Assembly: GCF_004331645.1 (NCBI RefSeq)
Contig: NZ_SJSK01000003.1
Coordinates: forward strand, 496,301-560,300
DNA: 64,000 nt
Reading direction: 5' to 3'
Source of the DNA: Pedobacter frigiditerrae
GTDB taxonomy: Bacteria > Bacteroidota > Bacteroidia > Sphingobacteriales > Sphingobacteriaceae
Of this stretch, positions 9,794-24,706 are shown piece by piece. The translations under genes were made by a program, and so were the position numbers. The notes below the pieces were generated by a model. It had not been told where the DNA came from and made no database searches. It saw only the letters and a program-made list of their open reading frames with translations. Every line of letters starts with the position of its first letter. The stretch's first letter is position 1.

Positions 9794-10543
9794 ATGACAC
9801 GAAGGAGTAAACCATTTATTGAAGTAGCTTATTTTTTAAGTCGTTTTGGTATTTCAACGCCACCTGCAAATCTTTTAACAGATTCTTGGAAAGAAGCTTA
9901 TTATATGTTTTATGAGGCTCTTAATGAAGGCAGAAATATTGAAACATTTGAGCATAGCTTAAAAAATGCGAGAGATTCCTTTGACACTCACTTCCATGAA
10001 AATAATAGAGAAGGTTGGAAAGATAAAAATGGAAAACCGATTAAATTAAGTGGATTGAACCTTGAAGTTTTTAATGCATTAAAAGGGGAAGATGAAAATG
10101 CAATTTGGGAACGAGTTAAAAAATATAGTCGTTTAGATATAAAAGCATTTAAACAAGAAATAGCAAATGTAACGGCAATTGAAGAATCTGAGAAAGATTT
10201 TGCGAATGCAAGAACAGAAGGCGGTGTAAAAGTATATATATCACACAAAATTGAGCGAAATGCTTCTTTAAGAAATGACGCTCTCAAAATACATGGTTAT
10301 GACTGTGCAGTATGTGGTTTCAATTTTGAAAAGACTTATGGGATTTGGGGAGCGAAATGGGCTGAAGTACATCATTTAACGCCTATGGGTAATAATAAAA
10401 AAGTAAAAAGACTCACAGACCCAAAAGTTGATTTGGTAGTATTATGTGCCAACTGCCATAGAATGATACATCGAAAAAAAGGGTTAGCATTAACGGTAAT
10501 GGAGTTGAAAGCGAAAATATATTCAAACAAACGTTTTTCCTAG
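9794..10543 (+). CDS. HNH endonuclease (McrA-like)
   Basis: A 249-residue protein with a C-terminal HNH nuclease domain. Zinc-binding and catalytic residues are clear: Cys171/Cys174 (CAVCGF), His193-His194 (EVHHLTPM), Cys218/Cys221 (CANCHRMIHR) with His222 and His226. The N-terminal ~140 residues are unassigned and may be the DNA-recognition or modification-sensing part. It lies 22 bp upstream of another gene on the same strand and next to a C5-methyltransferase/HpaII-type system. HNH proteins in such positions act as type II or modification-dependent restriction nucleases; which applies here is not decidable from sequence. Confidence 0.85.
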   Translation: MTRRSKPFIEVAYFLSRFGISTPPANLLTDSWKEAYYMFYEALNEGRNIETFEHSLKNARDSFDTHFHENNREGWKDKNGKPIKLSGLNLEVFNALKGEDENAIWERVKKYSRLDIKAFKQEIANVTAIEESEKDFANARTEGGVKVYISHKIERNASLRNDALKIHGYDCAVCGFNFEKTYGIWGAKWAEVHHLTPMGNNKKVKRLTDPKVDLVVLCANCHRMIHRKKGLALTVMELKAKIYSNKRFS

Positions 10544-10565
10544 CATTAAAATAGCGCATTAGCAA

Positions 10566-11306
10566 ATGCTTTATAATAAACCATCAAATACCAGGACAAA
10601 TCTAATTTACCAAGCATTGAATATAGAATTTCAAAAAAACATAAAAGACATATATATAGAAAATGGGAATTGGACTATAGTACGTTCTAGTTTTTCAAAC
10701 CTAGTACAATTAGAGCAACAAATAGCTAAACTACCATATAATGGTTGTGGGCTAAAAAAAGATGAAGCAGTTGAAAACACTCTCTTCCCCCCTTTTCTAC
10801 AGGTTTTCTATTATTTAATTTATCAGCACAAAAGTATCCCCAACGAAGAATTGTATTTTTCAGAATACCTCAAATGGCTAAATGTTGATCCTAAAACCAA
10901 TGGTCAATTCGCATATCAAGGAAATATGTATAGTATAGAGGGGTTAAAAGCTAGAGCGCTTAGAGCCTACCCCTCACTTATTAGAGATATTCATTTTTAT
11001 TATTTCTTATTAGAATCTAAAGAATTTGAAAACGTTAAATACTCAATGCATGCAGATTATTATGAGGGCTTAGATATTCTTGTTACAAGACAAGATGTAA
11101 CCTACGGTGTCTCAATTCTAATTAATACTAAGAGGGGGGCTGCTTTTAAAAAGTTAAAAGAGCGCCGACATAATTATGAAAATAACATTAAAGAAATTAT
11201 ATTAAAGGTAGATTTCTCAGAGTTGCATAAAAATGGAAATTTCTACTTATTAGATAAAGAGCAACTTAAACGCTTACTTAGCGAAATCGGAACTACAAAA
11301 ACCTGA
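10566..11306 (+). CDS. Unrecognised protein, possible restriction nuclease, partner of the HNH gene
   Basis: A 246-residue protein I do not firmly recognise. Residues 160-200 hold a pattern like a PD-(D/E)XK core, with Asp170 (YYEGLDILV), a strand (YGVSILINTK) and Lys189, followed by a basic helix ending in KERRH. Another conserved-looking stretch is RALRAYPSLIRDIHFYYFLL. It is cytosolic, with no signal peptide or membrane segment. It starts 22 bp after the HNH gene and its 3' end overlaps the convergent HpaII-type gene by 14 bp, so it belongs to the same defence cluster. A nuclease or specificity role is inference from the motif and neighbours. Confidence 0.55.
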   Translation: MLYNKPSNTRTNLIYQALNIEFQKNIKDIYIENGNWTIVRSSFSNLVQLEQQIAKLPYNGCGLKKDEAVENTLFPPFLQVFYYLIYQHKSIPNEELYFSEYLKWLNVDPKTNGQFAYQGNMYSIEGLKARALRAYPSLIRDIHFYYFLLESKEFENVKYSMHADYYEGLDILVTRQDVTYGVSILINTKRGAAFKKLKERRHNYENNIKEIILKVDFSELHKNGNFYLLDKEQLKRLLSEIGTTKT

Positions 11307-12369
11307 TTTGTAAGTTGAATTTTATAAACTGCTCTGAACCGTCTTCATATATACTTCCAAAGCCATGTCTGTCAGTGCTCGCGGTTTCTAGCTTTGTATT
11401 AGCTAATAAATAATCTTCAAACAGATTTTTCTCTATGATATGGTAACATGCCAATTCTCCATCTGCTTTTACAATAATATATCCTTCTGTTCCATTGTAC
11501 TTGCCTGTCCACACTTTTGCAGGCATCATTCCTAATGCAATTTCAGACAGAAAACGCTTCAATTTTACTTCGTAAAATTTGTGGCTTAGGCTTTGATCGA
11601 AGCCCAGCGGGTTTAAACGTACGAGTTCGGCACATATTAATGCCATTGAAGAAATACCTTTTTCATTAAATATCAACAATGCATGCGCTAGAATCTCTGG
11701 CATACATGAATCAATAAGTATCAAATTATTTTTAAACGTGTTATTTTCAAACCCATTTAAAGACAATTGCGCTCCTTTTGACAGTATGGATTTCACTCTA
11801 TCTCTAACCTTGCTTTTGGTTGCAACAGCATTAATTGCTGTGATATCAGATAAAGTAAATTTATATCCTGTAATCTTATAAATGAAATTCGTAGGATGGG
11901 TAGCGTTTAACAAAGTGGATGCACTTCCAAGCTTAGATTTAATACTGAAACCTAGGATTGGTTGGAGGTTTGTTCTAGCATCGTGTATTTGAATAACGAT
12001 ATCAGCCTTAGTGGCAGAATCTGCTTTAATCTGCGTAGCACCCAAAGCGTTTAAAAAATCCTCCGCCATTGGCGCAGTAAATGTACTCTTGCCTGTTTTA
12101 ATTATTTTGAATAAAGCCTTTGCTTGTGCGTCAAAGGAGCTGATTGGAACCTGTAATGGGCTAGCAGAATTTTTATTTACAATTACGTTAGGTGCTGATA
12201 ATGTAAAGGTGCTTACTTTCCCCTTTTCATTTCTAATAATTTCTACTACTGGATAGAAATGACTAGCTGTAGTGTTTAAAAAAGCATCCCCAGGTAATAG
12301 CTTTTGATCTGCGAGCACTTTAAAAAAGACATATAATTCACTCCATTCTCCTTTGTTACCTGTTTTCAT
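11293..12369 (-). CDS. HpaII-family type II restriction endonuclease
   Basis: Restriction endonuclease of the HpaII family (recognition CCGG in the type enzyme). The N-terminal GNKGEWSELYVFFKVLADQK and the central GFSIKSKLGSASTLLNAT with TNFIYKI match the family consensus as I remember it. A PD-(D/E)XK-like core is formed by Asp125 (KADIVIQIHD) and the Ser144-Ile-Lys146 segment. I take ATG 12367-12369; a GTG two codons upstream (12375) is an alternative. Total is about 358 residues, near the family's usual size. The cognate methyltransferase lies upstream on the same strand, 190-odd bp away. Specificity for CCGG is known for the family and inferred here. Confidence 0.87.
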   Translation of the reverse strand: MKTGNKGEWSELYVFFKVLADQKLLPGDAFLNTTASHFYPVVEIIRNEKGKVSTFTLSAPNVIVNKNSASPLQVPISSFDAQAKALFKIIKTGKSTFTAPMAEDFLNALGATQIKADSATKADIVIQIHDARTNLQPILGFSIKSKLGSASTLLNATHPTNFIYKITGYKFTLSDITAINAVATKSKVRDRVKSILSKGAQLSLNGFENNTFKNNLILIDSCMPEILAHALLIFNEKGISSMALICAELVRLNPLGFDQSLSHKFYEVKLKRFLSEIALGMMPAKVWTGKYNGTEGYIIVKADGELACYHIIEKNLFEDYLLANTKLETASTDRHGFGSIYEDGSEQFIKFNLQIRFL

Positions 12370-12562
12370 CCTCACAAATCTAAATAATTATCTGACTAAA
12401 TCTAATACTTAAAGTGTAGTAAAAATATGCCTTAGCAATTACAACTAATTTCTCTAAGTACGGATTGTTAAAGTACAATAAGAAAGATTAAGTCACAATA
12501 TGGGATAAATAAAAATGGACTAGCCTCAGTAAAAGAAACTCTAAAGTTTAAATTTACGTTCC

Positions 12563-13828
12563 TTAAAAGGTTTCTAGTTTCTCAAGTATAGCCCTAGCTG
12601 TTTCTTGTATTGCCGGTACAGCAACAGAGTTGCCAAACTGCTTGTAAGCCGAGGCATCAGCTACTGGTATTAAATAATTATCAGGAAAACCTTGTAGCCT
12701 TGCCCATTCTCTTGGGGTCATTTTACGTATTCCTTCACGATTTACAGTTCCTCTTATATGCGTTGTAGGTGTAAAATCAGTAATTCTATGATCTAGCACA
12801 AGGTTTCTTTCTCTTCCCATACCCCCCACTACAATCGCATTACTTATGCCTTCATCAGGAATAATGGCATAACCAAACCCATTTCCTTTATTAGCATGCC
12901 TTTCTTTGTGATTTACCAATGTTTGAACATACTGAGTAGATAAAAAGTATTTGGTGGCAGGTACTTCTTCCTCTTTAACCTGTGCAAAAGATACTTTCTT
13001 ATCCATAGCTTTTGGATATTCAAAACTTTCAATTCCTAAATCTCCTCTGAAACCAACAATATAAATCCTTTCTCTATTCTGAGGTACGCCAAAATCTTTT
13101 GCATTTACAATTTGAGGTTCTGGCACGAAATAACCTAAATCTGTTCTTAGCACATTTAAGATCGTAGCTAATGTTTTCCCACCATTATGATTGCGTAGAC
13201 CCTTTACATTTTCAAGAAAAATAGCTTTTGGTCTTTTTCTCTTAATAATTTCAGCAACATCAAAAAACAAAGTACCTCTCGTATCTTCGAATCCACCGCG
13301 TTTTCCGGCTATGGAAAATGCTTGACATGGAAAACCAGCACATAACAAATCAAAGCTATCAGGGATGAAAACCTTTGTTTCTTCTTTAGTTATGTCTCCA
13401 AATGGCCTTTCTCCAAAATTTGCTTTGTATGTCCTTTTGGCTTCCCTATCCCACTCGCTTGTGAAAACACACTTCCCTCCTAAATTCTGCATCGCTAGCC
13501 TGAATCCTCCAATTCCTGCAAAAAGGTCAATAAATTTAAACTTAGGGGCTTCAACTGGCGGGAATGGCACTTTAAAAGTATCAAATATGCCATATTGAAG
13601 AGCTTCTTCAGCAACTAAACTGGAAATATTATCCTCAGGATATTTATACTCTAGAATCTCTTGTGTAAACTTAACTGCATCTTTTTTGTAAAATTGAGAA
13701 ACACCATTTTTGCTATTATGCAAAAAATGAGTAATAACTGCTTCCTTGTTACTTTCAGCTTCTACAAGTCGTATTTTATATTCTTTTTCAAAAACTTTCT
13801 CGAGTGATATCTTCTCTTTTAGTTTCAT
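12563..13828 (-). CDS. DNA (cytosine-5) methyltransferase of the HpaII-type R-M system
   Basis: A 421-residue m5C methyltransferase. Motifs in order: I DLFAGIGGFRLA (residues 101-112), IV GFPCQAFS with catalytic Cys168, VI ENVKG (Glu206), VIII QNRERIYIVGF, a target-recognition region, then IX REWARLQGFPDNY and X QFGNSVAVP. An N-terminal extension of ~95 residues precedes motif I and may bind DNA or regulate expression. It protects host DNA from the adjacent endonuclease; it is transcribed ahead of it on the same strand, the usual order that lets methylation come first. The 193-bp gap between them could hold a separate promoter for the endonuclease. Confidence 0.95.
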   Translation of the reverse strand: MKLKEKISLEKVFEKEYKIRLVEAESNKEAVITHFLHNSKNGVSQFYKKDAVKFTQEILEYKYPEDNISSLVAEEALQYGIFDTFKVPFPPVEAPKFKFIDLFAGIGGFRLAMQNLGGKCVFTSEWDREAKRTYKANFGERPFGDITKEETKVFIPDSFDLLCAGFPCQAFSIAGKRGGFEDTRGTLFFDVAEIIKRKRPKAIFLENVKGLRNHNGGKTLATILNVLRTDLGYFVPEPQIVNAKDFGVPQNRERIYIVGFRGDLGIESFEYPKAMDKKVSFAQVKEEEVPATKYFLSTQYVQTLVNHKERHANKGNGFGYAIIPDEGISNAIVVGGMGRERNLVLDHRITDFTPTTHIRGTVNREGIRKMTPREWARLQGFPDNYLIPVADASAYKQFGNSVAVPAIQETARAILEKLETF

Positions 13829-14350
13829 TTTCTGACCAATGTTAAGGGACTAAAATACTAAAAATATTAGAATTAATACATAAAAAATAAAATTAATAGA
13901 AATAAATACTAATAATTCCGGTTATAAGTAACTTATTTATTTTTTACATATCAAATATCTGGTATTTAAAGCTTATTGCAAGGTCATTTTTGGCTAACTT
14001 TCTCACTGCGCTAGTAATGAACTTAATAATTTTTCAACAATATAAAGTTGTCAACATAAAAAGCAGTTCATTAATATCTTGAAGGAATACTTCTTCTCAT
14101 ATTACAAACAATACCAACTTCGTTTACATCTAGCTCTTTTTGTTGTAAATGCAAAGCATTCACAAGAAATGGGTTGTGAGTTGTAGAAAGTTTTGTCGAT
14201 TTTCTCGAAGAACTACTCTCCATAATTCAACTTAAACATCAAACTTTCTCTTCTCATTTACCCAAATTTCTTTATCTTAGTTTAACCATTGCAATGCTAG
14301 CAATCCAGCTTGTTCCAAGCAATCATTTCCCTTAATATCAATCCATCAAG
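13829..14350. other. Gene-free AT-rich region between the R-M system and the phased repeat arrays
   Basis: About 520 bp without a credible reading frame. It is AT-rich near the methyltransferase start and becomes more mixed toward 14300, where short TCCA/TCCC words announce the 11-nt phased arrays. Nothing else recognised. Confidence 0.6.
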
Positions 14351-14400
14351 TCCAAGTCAAATCCAAGTCAAGTCCAAGTTATATCCAAGTCATATCCAAC
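14351..14400 (+). repeat. 11-nt array, word TCCAAG
   Basis: TCCAAG begins at 14351, 14362, 14373 and 14384, with TCCAAC at 14395: five units with exact 11-nt spacing and variable linkers. Confidence 0.9.
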
Positions 14401-14592
14401 CTTCCCTTAGTCTTCCCCCAACTGTCCCATAGCTATGCTCCTATTTCTCCATAGTTCTTAGAGATTATAGTACAACTAAGAGAGAAAAGAATAGGGATAG
14501 AATGGGTATTGGAGTAAGCCTAAGGATGTGATAAACCCTGTCAACTTTATGCTTATTTGCCTAGCAAATTTAGCTTTATTTGGGTTCCTTTG

Positions 14593-14636
14593 TTCGACCT
14601 TGCTTCGAAGTTCCTTCGAGGTTTGTTCGTAGAAAT
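14593..14636 (+). repeat. 11-nt array, word TTCG
   Basis: TTCG begins at 14593, 14604, 14615 and 14626, exact 11-nt spacing, variable linkers. Confidence 0.85.
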
Positions 14637-14651
14637 GGCCCTTTTTACGAA

Positions 14652-14684
14652 GGATCCTCGAACGATCCTCGAACAATCCTCGAA
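14652..14684 (+). repeat. 11-nt array, word ATCCTCGAAC
   Basis: TCCTCGAA begins at 14655, 14666 and 14677. Units are GATCCTCGAAC twice and AATCCTCGAAC. CTCGAA/TTCGAG relates this word to the neighbouring TTCG array in inverse orientation. Confidence 0.88.
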
Positions 14685-14702
14685 CAAAGGCCCTTTCAAA
14701 CC

Positions 14703-14742
14703 GTTCAAATCAGGTCAAAAGCGTTCAAATCAGTTCATCATG
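14703..14742 (+). repeat. 10-nt array, word GTTCAAATCA
   Basis: GTTCAAATCA (14703), GGTCAAAAGC (14713), GTTCAAATCA (14723) and GTTCATCATG (14733): four units at 10-nt spacing. Confidence 0.8.
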
Positions 14743-14989
14743 TTATGATGGTTCGCGGTAAAGCTTGCTAGACGGTTACAGAAGGAATACTGGATTCAGC
14801 AAAAGAAGGGTTTAAAAAAGCGAAATTCATTCAAAATCTGCCCTGCCTTCTCCCACATTCCTCCCAGATTCCTTCGGAGAATTGGCCTTTAAAGCTACGT
14901 TTCTCGAACAACACTGGGAGAAGTCTCGAACAACCTACCTATTTAGCTAAATATTTTCGGAAATTCGAGGACATTTTTCAAGCAATTTT

Positions 14990-15110
14990 TTCGGGTTTCC
15001 TTCGGGAATTCATTTAGGTTTCTTCGGGAACTGTTCGGGAAGCGTTCGAGTCTGCTTCGGGAAGGCTTCGGGAAAGCTTCGGGAAACGTTCGGGAAACGT
15101 TCGGGACCGA
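14990..15110 (+). repeat. 11-nt array, word TTCGGGAA, eleven phased positions
   Basis: The longest array. TTCGGG (or a one- to three-base variant) begins at 14990, 15001, 15012 (degenerate), 15023, 15034, 15045 (TTCGAG), 15056, 15067, 15078, 15089 and 15100, with no slip in phase. It is followed at 15111 by CCCGAA, the reverse complement of the word, so the transcript could fold back. Confidence 0.92.
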
Positions 15111-15389
15111 CCCGAAGAAAAGACGAAGCGAAGTCGACTACTTCAGCATCCAATTATGATGCAGACACGACCCAGTTTCGATCAAATGGCGGAGAAATGC
15201 CGAGGCGCTAGCAGATTAGAAATTCTTATTTTTTGGTTTTTCTTAAACAGATTTGCCGCCCCCTAATCCCATCCCTTCCGCTGTAAAACCTCGATTCAAG
15301 CGATCCGCTAGGGAAAAAACCACCATAATCGGCTAAATTAGCATCATCAGTACAGTTTTTCAGGGCTTTTCCCGAAGCAATCCCCTACT

Positions 15390-15455
15390 TGATCCCTATC
15401 TGATCCCTACTTGGTATCTTGTTGGTATAGCTCGTGGTAAGACTGGGACTAGACT
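15390..15455 (+). repeat. 11-nt array, words TGATCCCTA and TGGTAT
   Basis: Successive 11-nt units start at 15390, 15401 (TGATCCCTA), 15412, 15423 (TGGTAT), 15434 and 15445. The word changes within the array while the phase is kept. Confidence 0.75.
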
Positions 15456-15518
15456 GCTATTGAATGAAGAAACACTAAAAATATCTTTCCGATTTCGAGA
15501 TGCTATCCAATCGAATTG

Positions 15519-15613: not shown

Positions 15614-18052
15614 TTAATTCTTAACCCTATTCTGCTCGTCTTCTGCCCCATTGGCATCATGTTTTCGCTGTCCGGAAATAGATTTACCAAATCTGTAGCT
15701 TAATGATAAAACTACTGTTCTAGTGTCATTTAAATTAGTCCAATTGGCTTTTGTTTGGCTCAGGTTATTAATGATCCCCGTGTTTTTGAAGGTATATAAA
15801 ACATCATTGGCTACCAACTTAATGGTAGTGCTAGCAGATAACTTCTTAGACGCTGCTGCATTTATCCTTCCCCTTGCACCCAAATCAAATTGTGCCGATT
15901 TTACCCTGCTTTGATAGCCACCATCTAATTGTACATTCCAATCTTTGGGTAATTTAAACTGAAATACCGGTCTAAAGAAGAAATAGGTACCTTTTGTGTC
16001 TAACAAACCCGTATAAAAATCACTTACCGAATGAACATTAGAAACGCGCCCACTGATGTTAAAATTAAGCCATTTAGCAAAATCAAATGAGGCATTAAAG
16101 GATAATGTTTTTACCGTGGTTTCTCCAATGTTACCGGGCCTGCTGTAATAGATACCGTCCACTATTTCAATGGTTTCACTTACATCGTTTCGTGTTTTGC
16201 TGTAACTCAATGTGGTGGTAAACCTACTTTTATAAGTGTGAGACAACTCGATATTATCTGTAAATGATGGTTTTAAAAATGGATTACCGGTATAGTAAGT
16301 AAATTTATCTATTGGAGATAAGAATGGATTTAGGTCTTGGTAATAAGGACGATCGATACGGCGACCATAATTGATGCCAAACACATTAACATCTGCTGTA
16401 TCTAGCTTGTACTGTAAATATACCGTTGGAAATAAGTTGGTATAGCTACGCTTAAAGGTAGAATCTGGCTTTTTTACATTACCCAACTGATGGCCGTTAG
16501 AAACCGTATTCTCTAATCGAAGGCCAAGTTGCACTGTTAATTTTTTAAAATCCTTGTTGACATTAAGGTAAACAGCGTTAATGTTTTCCTTATATAAAAA
16601 ATGGTTTGTTTTATCGTAATCTATAGCGGTTATTCCATTGTTCGAATAGAAATAATTGGCGATGTTATCTGTTTCTGTATAACTGGTTTTTAATCCGGCA
16701 GAAAGTTTAACACCGTTTTTAAAAGGATGTTCATAATCGGTTTTAGCAGAGAATATATCAATATTTGCTGGTAGCATTCCTGTTAGTAAATCGCTGTTTT
16801 TTAAGGCGCCGCTTGGCAAATAACTACTGTTGTTAAACGCTTGGTTGTTATTGGTGTAATAGTTTAAATAATCTACATCGGCGGTAAGTTCCCTCCCGTT
16901 TTTATCTAATTTTTGACGGAAGTTTAGGTTTACACCACTGTTCTTAAACAATTGATCCTGAACATTAAATGCTGCGATGGTTGAATCTAACTGATGCTGC
17001 GGATTAGAGAATTGGCTTTTCACATTTGCTGTTCTTTTGCTTGGGTTATAAATGCCAGTTAAATTAATCCCTATGGTACTGTTCTCCGATAGGTAATAAT
17101 CTGCCCCTATCTTGCTGGTGTAATTTTCTCCTATATTTCGGTTAAAGGAGTTTTGAATGAAATTAGACGTAGCGTTTCCAAAAGCATCTTCGAAATAACG
17201 ATTGATGGTTAAATTACTATAGCCATTATTGGTGTTAAAACCGAGGTTACCAAACAAGTTAAGTTTATTGTTTCGGTAATTAAAGTTGAAACTATTAACC
17301 GTTCTGCCATAACTACCTTGCGAATAGCTCAAATTTACAGCGCCGTTAAACCCCTTTACCTGAGTTCGTTTAGTGCGGATGTTGATTACACCGCCGTTGC
17401 CTGCAGCATCGTATTTGGCTGGCGGATTGGTCATCAATTCTATTTGATCTATACTAGCAGAGGATAGGGAACGCAGGTAACTTTCTAAATCGGCACCAGA
17501 CAAATAAGTAGGTTTATCATCTATAAAAATGGTAACACCTAAGCCTTTTAAACTTATTGCACCATTTTGATCTACAATTACACCTGGTGCTTTCTCTAAT
17601 ACCTCTAGTGCCGTGCTACCTGCATTACTAATCAAAGCTTCAGGATTTACCACCATGCGATCTACCTTCTGCTGTACAAACGGACGCTGTGCCGTAACGG
17701 TAACCTGGTTTAATGTGGTTTGTGCAGCTTGTAGTGTAATGGACCCGATATTTTTATCCTGATTTAATACAAAAGCACTTCCCTTATAGGTCTCAAAGCC
17801 CATCAGCATTACCGTTAACTTGTAATTTCCCGTTGCTATATTTTGAAACTGATAAAGTCCATTTGCATCAGCTATGGCAGTTTTAAGCAAGGCTGAATCT
17901 GTAGCTTTAAACAAGTATAGTGTTGCGCCATCTATAGGTTTCCCATCAGCAGAATTTACCTTGCCAGTAAGGGTTAAGTTAGTTTGTGCTAAAGTAAAAA
18001 TTGAGGTAAAGGATATCCAGGCGACCATCAAAGTCGCAAAAAATAGTTTCAT
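15614..18052 (-). CDS. TonB-dependent-receptor-like outer membrane beta-barrel protein
   Basis: An 812-residue outer-membrane protein. A signal peptide (to about residue 23, ending TLAQT) is followed by a carboxypeptidase-regulatory-like Ig-fold domain (LTLTGKVNSADGKPIDGATLYL, about 25-110), a plug domain (about 115-230, with VDRMVVNPEALISNAGSTALE and GGVINIRTKR) and a C-terminal barrel of about 580 residues ending in SLSYRFGKS plus a polar tail. This is the family-3 barrel type that usually lacks a SusD partner. It lies directly downstream of the M56 protease and BlaI genes on the same strand (33-bp gap), so it is probably the regulated output of that pair. Substrate unknown. Confidence 0.88.
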   Translation of the reverse strand: MKLFFATLMVAWISFTSIFTLAQTNLTLTGKVNSADGKPIDGATLYLFKATDSALLKTAIADANGLYQFQNIATGNYKLTVMLMGFETYKGSAFVLNQDKNIGSITLQAAQTTLNQVTVTAQRPFVQQKVDRMVVNPEALISNAGSTALEVLEKAPGVIVDQNGAISLKGLGVTIFIDDKPTYLSGADLESYLRSLSSASIDQIELMTNPPAKYDAAGNGGVINIRTKRTQVKGFNGAVNLSYSQGSYGRTVNSFNFNYRNNKLNLFGNLGFNTNNGYSNLTINRYFEDAFGNATSNFIQNSFNRNIGENYTSKIGADYYLSENSTIGINLTGIYNPSKRTANVKSQFSNPQHQLDSTIAAFNVQDQLFKNSGVNLNFRQKLDKNGRELTADVDYLNYYTNNNQAFNNSSYLPSGALKNSDLLTGMLPANIDIFSAKTDYEHPFKNGVKLSAGLKTSYTETDNIANYFYSNNGITAIDYDKTNHFLYKENINAVYLNVNKDFKKLTVQLGLRLENTVSNGHQLGNVKKPDSTFKRSYTNLFPTVYLQYKLDTADVNVFGINYGRRIDRPYYQDLNPFLSPIDKFTYYTGNPFLKPSFTDNIELSHTYKSRFTTTLSYSKTRNDVSETIEIVDGIYYSRPGNIGETTVKTLSFNASFDFAKWLNFNISGRVSNVHSVSDFYTGLLDTKGTYFFFRPVFQFKLPKDWNVQLDGGYQSRVKSAQFDLGARGRINAAASKKLSASTTIKLVANDVLYTFKNTGIINNLSQTKANWTNLNDTRTVVLSLSYRFGKSISGQRKHDANGAEDEQNRVKN

Positions 18053-21189: not shown

Positions 21190-22376
21190 TTTGTTTTGAT
21201 TAATTTTAGAATGAGAAGGAAGCAGGAGTAAACTATCGCTCTGTCAGAGTTAGAAACTCATATCTCGATTTAGACTTCTGCCTCCCTTTCATCAGGAACT
21301 CAAATAGAAATTAGGGCTAGTGACCCATTATGAAGGAATTGAGCCGAACTGATGGATTCTCATTTCACATTCTTAACATGAATTTATGAAAAAGATTTTT
21401 ATTGGGATCGACATCAGCAGCAAGACATTGGACATCTGTTTAAAGACTGAGGGTAAGGTCCAGCATTTCAACATCCAGAATGAGCCTAAGGCCATTAGGT
21501 CATTCCTTAAAAAGCACACGGTGGCAGGAACCATAGTCGCCATGGAGAATACCGGCCGTTATAACTGGCACTTGCTTGAGGGCATTGGAGGGCCTGGAAC
21601 TGTCCGTATATGTAATGGCCCCGGCCCACCTGAAGAAGAGCCTTGGGCTTGCAAGGGGAAAGAACGACAAGGTTGATGCATTGAGGATCTGCAGCTTTAT
21701 CGAAAGGAACGGGCAGGATTGCGAGCAATGGAAACCATCCACGGCATCCATAAAAAAACTCAGGGTACTGCTTGCAGAGCGTGAATCAAGGATAAAAATG
21801 AAGGGACAGCTGGCCAGGCAGCAACACGACTACAAGCTGATGAAAAGCCTTGGGGTGGACAGGGAGCTGCTCAAGCTTAACAAAAAGCTCATTGAAGCCA
21901 TTGACGTGCAGATAAGGAAGATAGAATCCGATATTGAAAGGAGCATCATGGAGGATGGCGAACTCAGGAAAAAAACTGAACTTATGCGATCTGTGCCAGG
22001 GGTTGGAAAGGTGGTGTCATGGATGATGATCGCCAAGACCGATTGGTTTACATCGATCAGCGACCCAAGGAAGATGGCCTGTCACTGTGGGGTGGTGCCA
22101 TTCGACCACCAATCAGGTACCTCGATAAGATTTAGGCCAAGGGTTTCCGTATTTGCTGACAGGAAGATGAAAAGCCTGCTCCATCTTGCTGCAATGAGTG
22201 CCATAAGGCTGAATAACGAGCTCAGAATATACTATCAGAGAAAAGTGGGCGATGGAAAGAACAAGATGAGTGTTTTGAATGCCGTTAGGAACAAGATCAT
22301 TCACAGGATATTTGCTGTAGTAAAAAACCAAACCACCTATAAAAATGATTTGGTTTTATCATAGAAATCGAGATGA
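21190..22376 (+). mobile_element. IS110-family insertion sequence (ends approximate)
   Basis: The element is defined by an IS110-type transposase (21386-22364) and a ~200-bp non-coding left region. IS110 elements lack classical terminal inverted repeats, so the ends are estimates. Known IS110 members transcribe a bridge RNA from the non-coding end next to the transposase start; 21190-21385 is where it would be expected, and it holds the hairpin-forming CTCTGTCAGAG (21239-21249). The right end lies within the 22 bp between the transposase stop and the end of the neighbouring dehydrogenase gene, next to ATCGAGATGACG, a common repeat motif in this genome. Confidence 0.75.
21386..22364 (+). pseudogene. 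IS110-family transposase broken by a one-base frameshift
   Basis: DEDD transposase in two frames. Frame 1 (21386-21577) encodes the start of the RuvC-like domain: FIGIDISSKTLDICLK with the first Asp, and VAMENTGRYNWHLL with Glu. Frame 2 (from 21576 to 22364) continues RALEGLELSVYVMAPAHLKK, then GKNDKVDAL with the last two acidic residues, a coiled linker, and the C-terminal Transposase_20 domain with PGVGKVVSWMM and the HQSGTS serine motif. Joining the frames at CTTG (21575-21578) restores a full protein, so one extra base has been inserted, or the assembly has an error. All catalytic residues are otherwise intact, suggesting recent loss. A programmed +1 shift is not typical of this family. 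Confidence 0.88.
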
Positions 22377-24308: not shown

Positions 24309-24381
24309 GATTCCGTAGCTCAGCTGGTAGAGCATTACACTTTTAATGTAGTGGTCCTGGGTTCGAATCCCAGCGGGATCA
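24309..24381 (+). tRNA. tRNA-Lys (anticodon TTT)
   Basis: 73 nt that fold into a full cloverleaf: acceptor GATTCCG/CGGGATC with one G-U pair, D arm GCTC/GAGC, anticodon arm TTACA/TGTAG with loop CTTTTAA (anticodon TTT), T arm CTGGG/CCCAG, discriminator A. The 3' CCA is not encoded. The 3' end is the start of a repeated unit and the likely attachment site of an integrated element. Confidence 0.97.
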
Positions 24382-24523
24382 CAAAGCCTCACACTAGTGA
24401 GGCTTTTTTCGTTTGGAAACCTCCAAAACTTGTTTTTGAAGAGGTAGACAAATGAAAAAAGATATTCCTGCATTGCAGGAATGAGGCTTTGGACAAGATT
24501 AATGTGGAGGGAACATATCTTAT
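24366..24523 (+). repeat. 158-bp tRNA-tail/terminator/integrase-scar unit, copy 1
   Basis: Starts with the last 16-17 bases of tRNA-Lys (AATCCCAGCGGGATCAC), then a terminator hairpin, then ~90 bp related to an integrase gene (see 31153-31408), and ends where the tRNA tail begins again at 24524. In the integrase-like part an A-run is one base shorter and a Trp codon is TAG, so it is not coding. Confidence 0.92.
24385..24409 (+). terminator. Rho-independent terminator after tRNA-Lys
   Basis: Stem AGCCTCAC/GTGAGGCT with ACTA loop followed by T6. Copies occur at 24543-24567 and 35883-35907 as part of the 158-bp units. Confidence 0.9.
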
Positions 24524-24698
24524 AATCCCAGCGGGATCACAAAGCCTCACACTAGTGAGGCTTTTTTCGTTTGGAAACCTCCAAAACTTGTTTTTGAAGA
24601 GGTAGACAAATGAAAAAAGACATTCCTGCATAGCAGAAATGAGGCTTTGGACAAGGTCAATTCGGAGGGAACATATCTTATAATCCCAGCGGGATCAC
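24524..24698 (+). repeat. 158-bp unit, copy 2, closed by a third tRNA tail
   Basis: Second unit in direct tandem with copy 1; the next tRNA tail begins at 24682, again 158 bp on. It is more diverged than copy 1 (for example CATAGCAGAAATGAGG for CATTGCAGGAATGAGG). Confidence 0.92.
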
Positions 24699-24706
24699 AG
24701 AAATAC

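Follow-up and report, generated by a model that had tools for sequence, protein, structure and literature searches.

Plasmid parC iterons of the R1 type, which are bound by ParR, are direct repeats of about 11 bp around a promoter. Direct repeats at intervals of 10–11 bp serve the excisionases Apl and Xis as sites of head-to-tail assembly (PMC7498355), and REP/REPIN sequences combine a copy linked to a RAYT gene with dispersed palindromic intergenic orphans that share its sequence (PMC3116915). Within the Bacteroidota, BrickBuilt of Porphyromonas gingivalis is a MITE with an internal minisatellite of 23-nt repeats and terminal inverted repeats like those of insertion sequences (PMC4596501). 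The arrays that we describe here, from Pedobacter frigiditerrae and related genomes, have features of each of these systems, but an element made of helix-phased words followed by their repeat in mirror orientation is apparently undescribed.

The window is the whole 64,000-nucleotide stretch of P. frigiditerrae DNA that was analyzed. The 11-nt phasing of positions 14341–15460 is real and above chance: in an autocorrelation against 300 dinucleotide shuffles, identity at lag 11 is 42.6% (z = 12.6), accompanied by peaks at lags 22 (z = 9.2), 33 (z = 5.0), and 10 (z = 3.8). A preliminary description of this DNA had reported such phasing in a segment free of genes. The lag-11 peak holds against the shuffles, and the interval from the end of M.HpaII (13828) to the start of the OMP_b-brl_3 gene (15614) is indeed without a convincing gene. 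Most of the word positions given there also check out (Table 1), except that eleven positions had been claimed for the array from 14990 to 15100, of which TTCG fills ten, and that the last array has phased words with some 12-nt steps among the 11-nt ones. Behind the TTCGGG array, where CCCGAA had been noted, the continuation as an inverted CGA arm in one 11-nt register had been missed.

Table 1. Phased arrays of the window and the genes on either side, by position in the window.
Feature	Positions	Strand	Words and remarks
Neighbor: C5-cytosine methylase of an HpaII-type restriction-modification pair	12563–13828	-	No sign of belonging to the element
TCCAAG array	14346–14399		Five words at exact 11-nt spacing; TCCAA at 14351/14362/14373/14384/14395
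TTCG arm	14593–14629	+	Four words, 11 nt apart: 14593/14604/14615/14626
Inverted CGAA arm	14648–14685	-	Four words, 11 nt, in the register of the TTCG arm 14593–14629; CTCGAAC at 14657/14668/14679, extra CGAA at 14648 in the same register
10-nt array (GTTCAAATCA)	14701–14737	+	TCAAA at 14705/14715/14725; GTTCA at 14703/14723/14733
Dispersed module	14811–14933		TCCC/TTCG words and inverted CTCGAAC/GGGAG words; TCCC at 14851/14862, then TTCG at 14873
TTCGGG arm	14990–15106	+	Ten TTCG words in eleven 11-nt slots (14990, 15001, 15023–15100; slot 15012 without TTCG); nine of the ten are TTCGGG
Inverted CGA(A) arm of the TTCGGG element	15108–15208	-	One 11-nt register; CGA at 15113/15124/15135/15168/15179/15201
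TCCC/TGGTA array	15381–15440		Steps of 11–12 nt; TCCC at 15381/15393/15404, TGGTA at 15412/15423/15435
Neighbor: OMP_b-brl_3 outer-membrane beta-barrel gene	15614–18052	-	No sign of belonging to the element

One side of the segment had been described as a defense cluster. The left neighbor is a restriction-modification pair, but nothing ties the arrays to it: they occur genome-wide, linked to DUF6266 and HTH_17 genes rather than to the restriction-modification cluster, and we rejected a connection with HpaII after finding unrelated neighbors beside other copies. In the window, the interval 9794–13828 has the HpaII-type restriction enzyme and methylase next to a gene for an HNH endonuclease and to a protein whose family is unknown. 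Farther along, an IS110-family transposase gene extends across two frames and is apparently disrupted (21386–22364), and a 158-bp unit is tandemly duplicated with 96% identity (24366–24699).

The arrays are not confined to the window. Arrays homologous to the TCCAAG array lie at C1:439244 and C1:735670, with further homologues recognized by eye at C6:125930, C6:292967, and C6:706898; the dispersed module has copies at C7:300320, C1:735279, C6:707k, and other places; and the stretch 14811–15472, with the TCCC/TGGTA array inside it, is duplicated at C6:707252-707903. The TTCGGG array belongs to a set of nine homologous copies in P. frigiditerrae, of which one precedes a DUF6266 gene; because all nine retain the order of the spacers, the whole array is the unit that was copied. 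Alignment of the copies reveals a palindrome, a phased TTCG arm followed by a phased CGA(A) arm that can be traced in one register to about 15208, and copies differ by the gain or loss of exactly one 11-nt unit. A second word family, GACGGACTTTA/TTCGGACTTTG, is represented at a DUF6266 gene (C8:161651) and at five other places; homology between these copies covers ~190 bp of element, and their flanks are unrelated. In each of the two families, a single gene-linked copy is accompanied by five to eight orphans. Across this genome, three phased TTCG words (≤2 mismatches) gave 95 matches on both strands, compared with 27 for a reversed-pattern control. A word-free scan took in C7, roughly half of C6, and a selection of other places; in C7 and the scanned parts of C6, 11 is the leading array period and several other words occur. 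Many arrays of this genome are far from DUF6266, some of them between convergent genes. By eye, the copy alignments contain opposed arms and no evident target-site duplication, and no transposase linked to the element was seen in the loci examined.

Divergence between copies depends on phase. At homologous positions across copies, it is 0.10 for the TTCG core and 0.25 for the spacers of that arm, and 0.23 and 0.51, respectively, for the CGA core and its spacers. The rate for core words is about half that for spacers, and the words that hold the phase are therefore constrained relative to the spacers, in agreement with the earlier impression that the core is kept while the rest of the unit varies.

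The preliminary description had recommended a search of related genomes for 11-nt phasing. Of 201 genomes of the order, 27 contain a strict TTCGGG pattern, against almost nothing for a reversed control, and its loci often consist of a direct array and then an inverted one; seven of the loci that were examined lie directly upstream of a DUF6266 (PF19781) gene. Among 29 DUF6266 genes chosen regardless of arrays, 23 are preceded by an 11-nt array at a distance of up to 500 bp, and no array lies downstream. A second set, from GTDB genomes and mostly Sphingobacteriaceae, has upstream arrays in 64/78 and downstream arrays in 1/78, with every upstream lag besides 10, 11, and 22 at ≤5/78; the two sets share some loci and come entirely from related organisms, and their counts are not independent events. 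DUF6266 is present in 91 of the 201 genomes sampled from the order, including all 18 with three or more TTCGGG hits and 73 of the remaining 183. In P. frigiditerrae, an array is associated with five of the six DUF6266 genes. Words vary by locus (TTCGGG, TTCGAC, GGTTACCTATT, TTGCCTTTTCT, CGGTAAAT, CCTAGTTGACT, and AACAGGGACTT) at a constant period, which extends to DUF6266 loci what had been noted for the arrays of the window. Some arrays in Sphingobacterium precede thioredoxin/SusC-like operons.

Two observations concern related loci. TTCG palindromic arrays lie upstream of operons for thioredoxin-like and TonB-plug (SusC-like) proteins at L147, L149, L150, and L151 (Sphingobacteriaceae G230 and G100), and some loci of this kind have additional phased arrays with other words (CGGTAC, TTAGGT). 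In P. frigiditerrae, C7:338136-338927 (-) and C7:817685-818536 (+) encode two proteins that are related to each other and fall into no Pfam family; they are distant DUF6266 relatives, one of which matches the DUF6266 profile at E = 5.6e-4, and an 11-nt array immediately precedes each gene.

Upstream of DUF6266 genes, the period is 11 at -480 to -190 and 10 at -190 to -70, and 36 of 76 loci have a Bacteroidota-type TAnnTTTG promoter motif between -90 and -64, compared with 0 of 76 control segments. These period zones and the position of the motif place the distal palindromic 11-nt array first, followed by the proximal 10-nt array, the promoter, and the gene. The direct and inverted arms together fold better than shuffles (mean z about -2.5), equally well on the plus and minus strands (p = 0.83), which favors a palindrome at the DNA level over RNA; because there is no strand asymmetry in folding and the arrays are upstream of the promoter, DNA binding fits better than RNA structure. 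The arrays have no match in Rfam. Many loci (e.g., L243, L275, L228) also carry a palindrome, such as ATACCGGTAT or GATATC, at about -70 to -40, between the promoter motif and the start codon.

Positions 14593–14737 of the window repeat this anatomy in part, with four TTCG words, four CGAA words, and the 10-nt TCAAA array, which is similar to the GGTCAAATTC array next to the promoter at the DUF6266 gene C1:1225985; promoter and gene are lacking. A tblastn search of the window found no significant match to a DUF6266 remnant. The window copies are orphans that lie clustered, either relics or independently copied elements.

The predicted structure of DUF6266 combines a small N-terminal beta/helical part with a C-terminal fibronectin-III-like domain. 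For collection searches we aligned ten closer proteins, an alignment of 29 being too diverse; PHROGs gave no match, and a relative occurs on one 4.3-kb viral contig. Our literature search found no paper that names DUF6266, and no description of the array-DUF6266 association or of this class of Sphingobacteriaceae intergenic repeats.

Of 60 array-positive loci, 49 have a gene for an HTH_17 protein no more than 3 kb upstream, against 5 of 13 array-negative ones (p = 0.003); the other 11 array-positive loci have none within that distance, and there is none in the window. A Pfam search of the whole P. frigiditerrae genome counted four HTH_17 genes, all <2 kb from an array, and one HTH_17 protein that was examined matches excisionase families. 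In Mantel tests, array words track the similarity of DUF6266 and not that of HTH_17 when the other is held constant, and we rejected word specificity of HTH_17 as unsupported after control for DUF6266. At L289:985-1195 (C1 near 1516500), phased direct TCCG and inverted GCGGA words lie just downstream of a 413-aa HTH_17-domain protein. From its genomic association, HTH_17 appears to be the best candidate reader of the array, but this role may also fall to LytTR, to DUF6266 itself, or to an unlinked factor.

Taken together, we favor, with moderate confidence, the reading that a palindromic DNA element is dispersed through the genome, with the window arrays as its orphan copies and the gene-linked copies as putative operators controlling DUF6266. 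The arrays are probably landing strips for a DNA-binding protein. Judging from anatomy and precedent, the distal 11-nt array with its inverted arm, the proximal 10-nt array, and the Bacteroidota promoter would form the upstream control region, on which protein may assemble head-to-tail, one protomer per helical turn, as lambda Xis and phage 186 Apl do. Such a cooperative filament on a helix-phased operator would then control transcription, with the HTH_17 protein, usually encoded just upstream, as candidate reader; we propose a filament because HTH_17 genes lie near arrays, one product matches excisionases, and excisionases assemble on repeats of this spacing. Against this reading weigh the array words that track DUF6266 rather than HTH_17, the array-positive loci with no HTH_17 gene nearby, the many arrays far from DUF6266, and those before thioredoxin/SusC-like operons. 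For DNA, the initial suggestion that one helix face is under selection is a good reading, as the gene-linked elements sit at promoters with a spacing of 11 distally and 10 proximally. A wider and more tentative proposal, which we consider possible at best, is an undescribed Sphingobacteriaceae system, a (LytTR)-HTH_17-array-DUF6266 cassette in which the array word changes from cassette to cassette and spreads as orphans, word and protein co-evolving as specificity pairs.

The dispersal of the element might also be explained by mobility, as a non-autonomous palindromic element (REPIN- or MITE-like) whose gene-linked copy is the master and whose movement is aided by DUF6266 or HTH_17. Both word families pair one gene-linked copy with several orphans, homology stops at the element ends, and HTH_17 resembles excisionases, but the loci examined lack a linked transposase or integrase, no target-site duplication was evident by eye, and DUF6266 is modeled as a fibronectin-III-like domain plus a small N-terminal part rather than a nuclease fold. 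We consider this reading unlikely; it can hold alongside the operator model, because its subject is how the element spreads and not what it does. Slippage in one-turn steps could likewise, as a mutational process, generate 11-nt minisatellites whose later copying involves no selection on phase. It does occur, as the exact one-unit gains and losses indicate. Many words at a single period and arrays between convergent genes are further points in its favor, yet as a full account it is quite improbable: core words are conserved over spacers at homologous positions, arrays lie upstream of DUF6266 and almost never downstream, and neither inverted arms nor a separate proximal 10-nt array would be expected.

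A transcribed leader, with the phased words as RNA hairpins or sites for an RNA-binding protein (an attenuator, or the RNA antitoxin of a type III toxin-antitoxin system), would suit the folding of the two arms, the match of 11 to a turn of A-form helix, and the position upstream of a single gene. The equal folding of both strands, the TAnnTTTG motif between array and gene, and the lack of an Rfam match make it very unlikely, and the structured transcript raised earlier was not borne out; as an RNA hairpin, the array would be on the wrong side of the promoter. Decayed coding repeats, which had been named as a refuting outcome, were rejected, because 11 is not divisible by 3 and the arrays are covered by short open frames. 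LytTR domains bind direct repeats, and a LytTR response regulator might replace HTH_17 as reader: its gene is upstream in 26 of 60 array-positive loci and stands directly before the array at C1:1225550. However, it is missing from the other 34, its association with arrays is not significant (p = 0.11), and it always occurs alongside HTH_17, leaving this alternative highly improbable.

The putative operator reading gives DUF6266, a widespread domain of unknown function, a specific and testable regulatory architecture, and would explain a recurrent class of Sphingobacteriaceae intergenic repeats. The natural arrays, which vary word and spacer at fixed helical phase, also offer a test of how periodic DNA is read and operator words change.

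Of the described systems, type III toxin-antitoxin loci place transcribed repeats between promoter and toxin gene, whereas here the arrays are upstream of TAnnTTTG and show no strand asymmetry. The arrays share with parC iterons their ~11-bp direct repeats around a promoter, but have many dispersed chromosomal copies, and no partition genes lie beside those examined. BrickBuilt is likewise a dispersed intergenic element of Bacteroidota with a tandem array; the element described here differs in its 11-nt words in two opposed arms and its tie to a gene family. As with REP/REPIN, there are dispersed palindromic intergenic copies and gene-linked ones, but the words are repeated in helical phase, and in a family search the linked genes match DUF6266, HTH_17, and LytTR rather than a Y1 (HUH) tyrosine transposase. 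Excisionase (recombination directionality factor) arrays such as those of lambda Xis and phage 186 Apl are alike in their direct repeats of one helical turn (10–11 bp) near promoters; an excisionase-type HTH gene is close by in 49 of 60 array-positive loci, though not in the others or in the window. No partner integrase is among the flanking genes inspected here. The arrays differ further in that an arm can hold as many as about eleven words, a second arm is inverted, the words change with the locus, and orphans occur in the chromosome.
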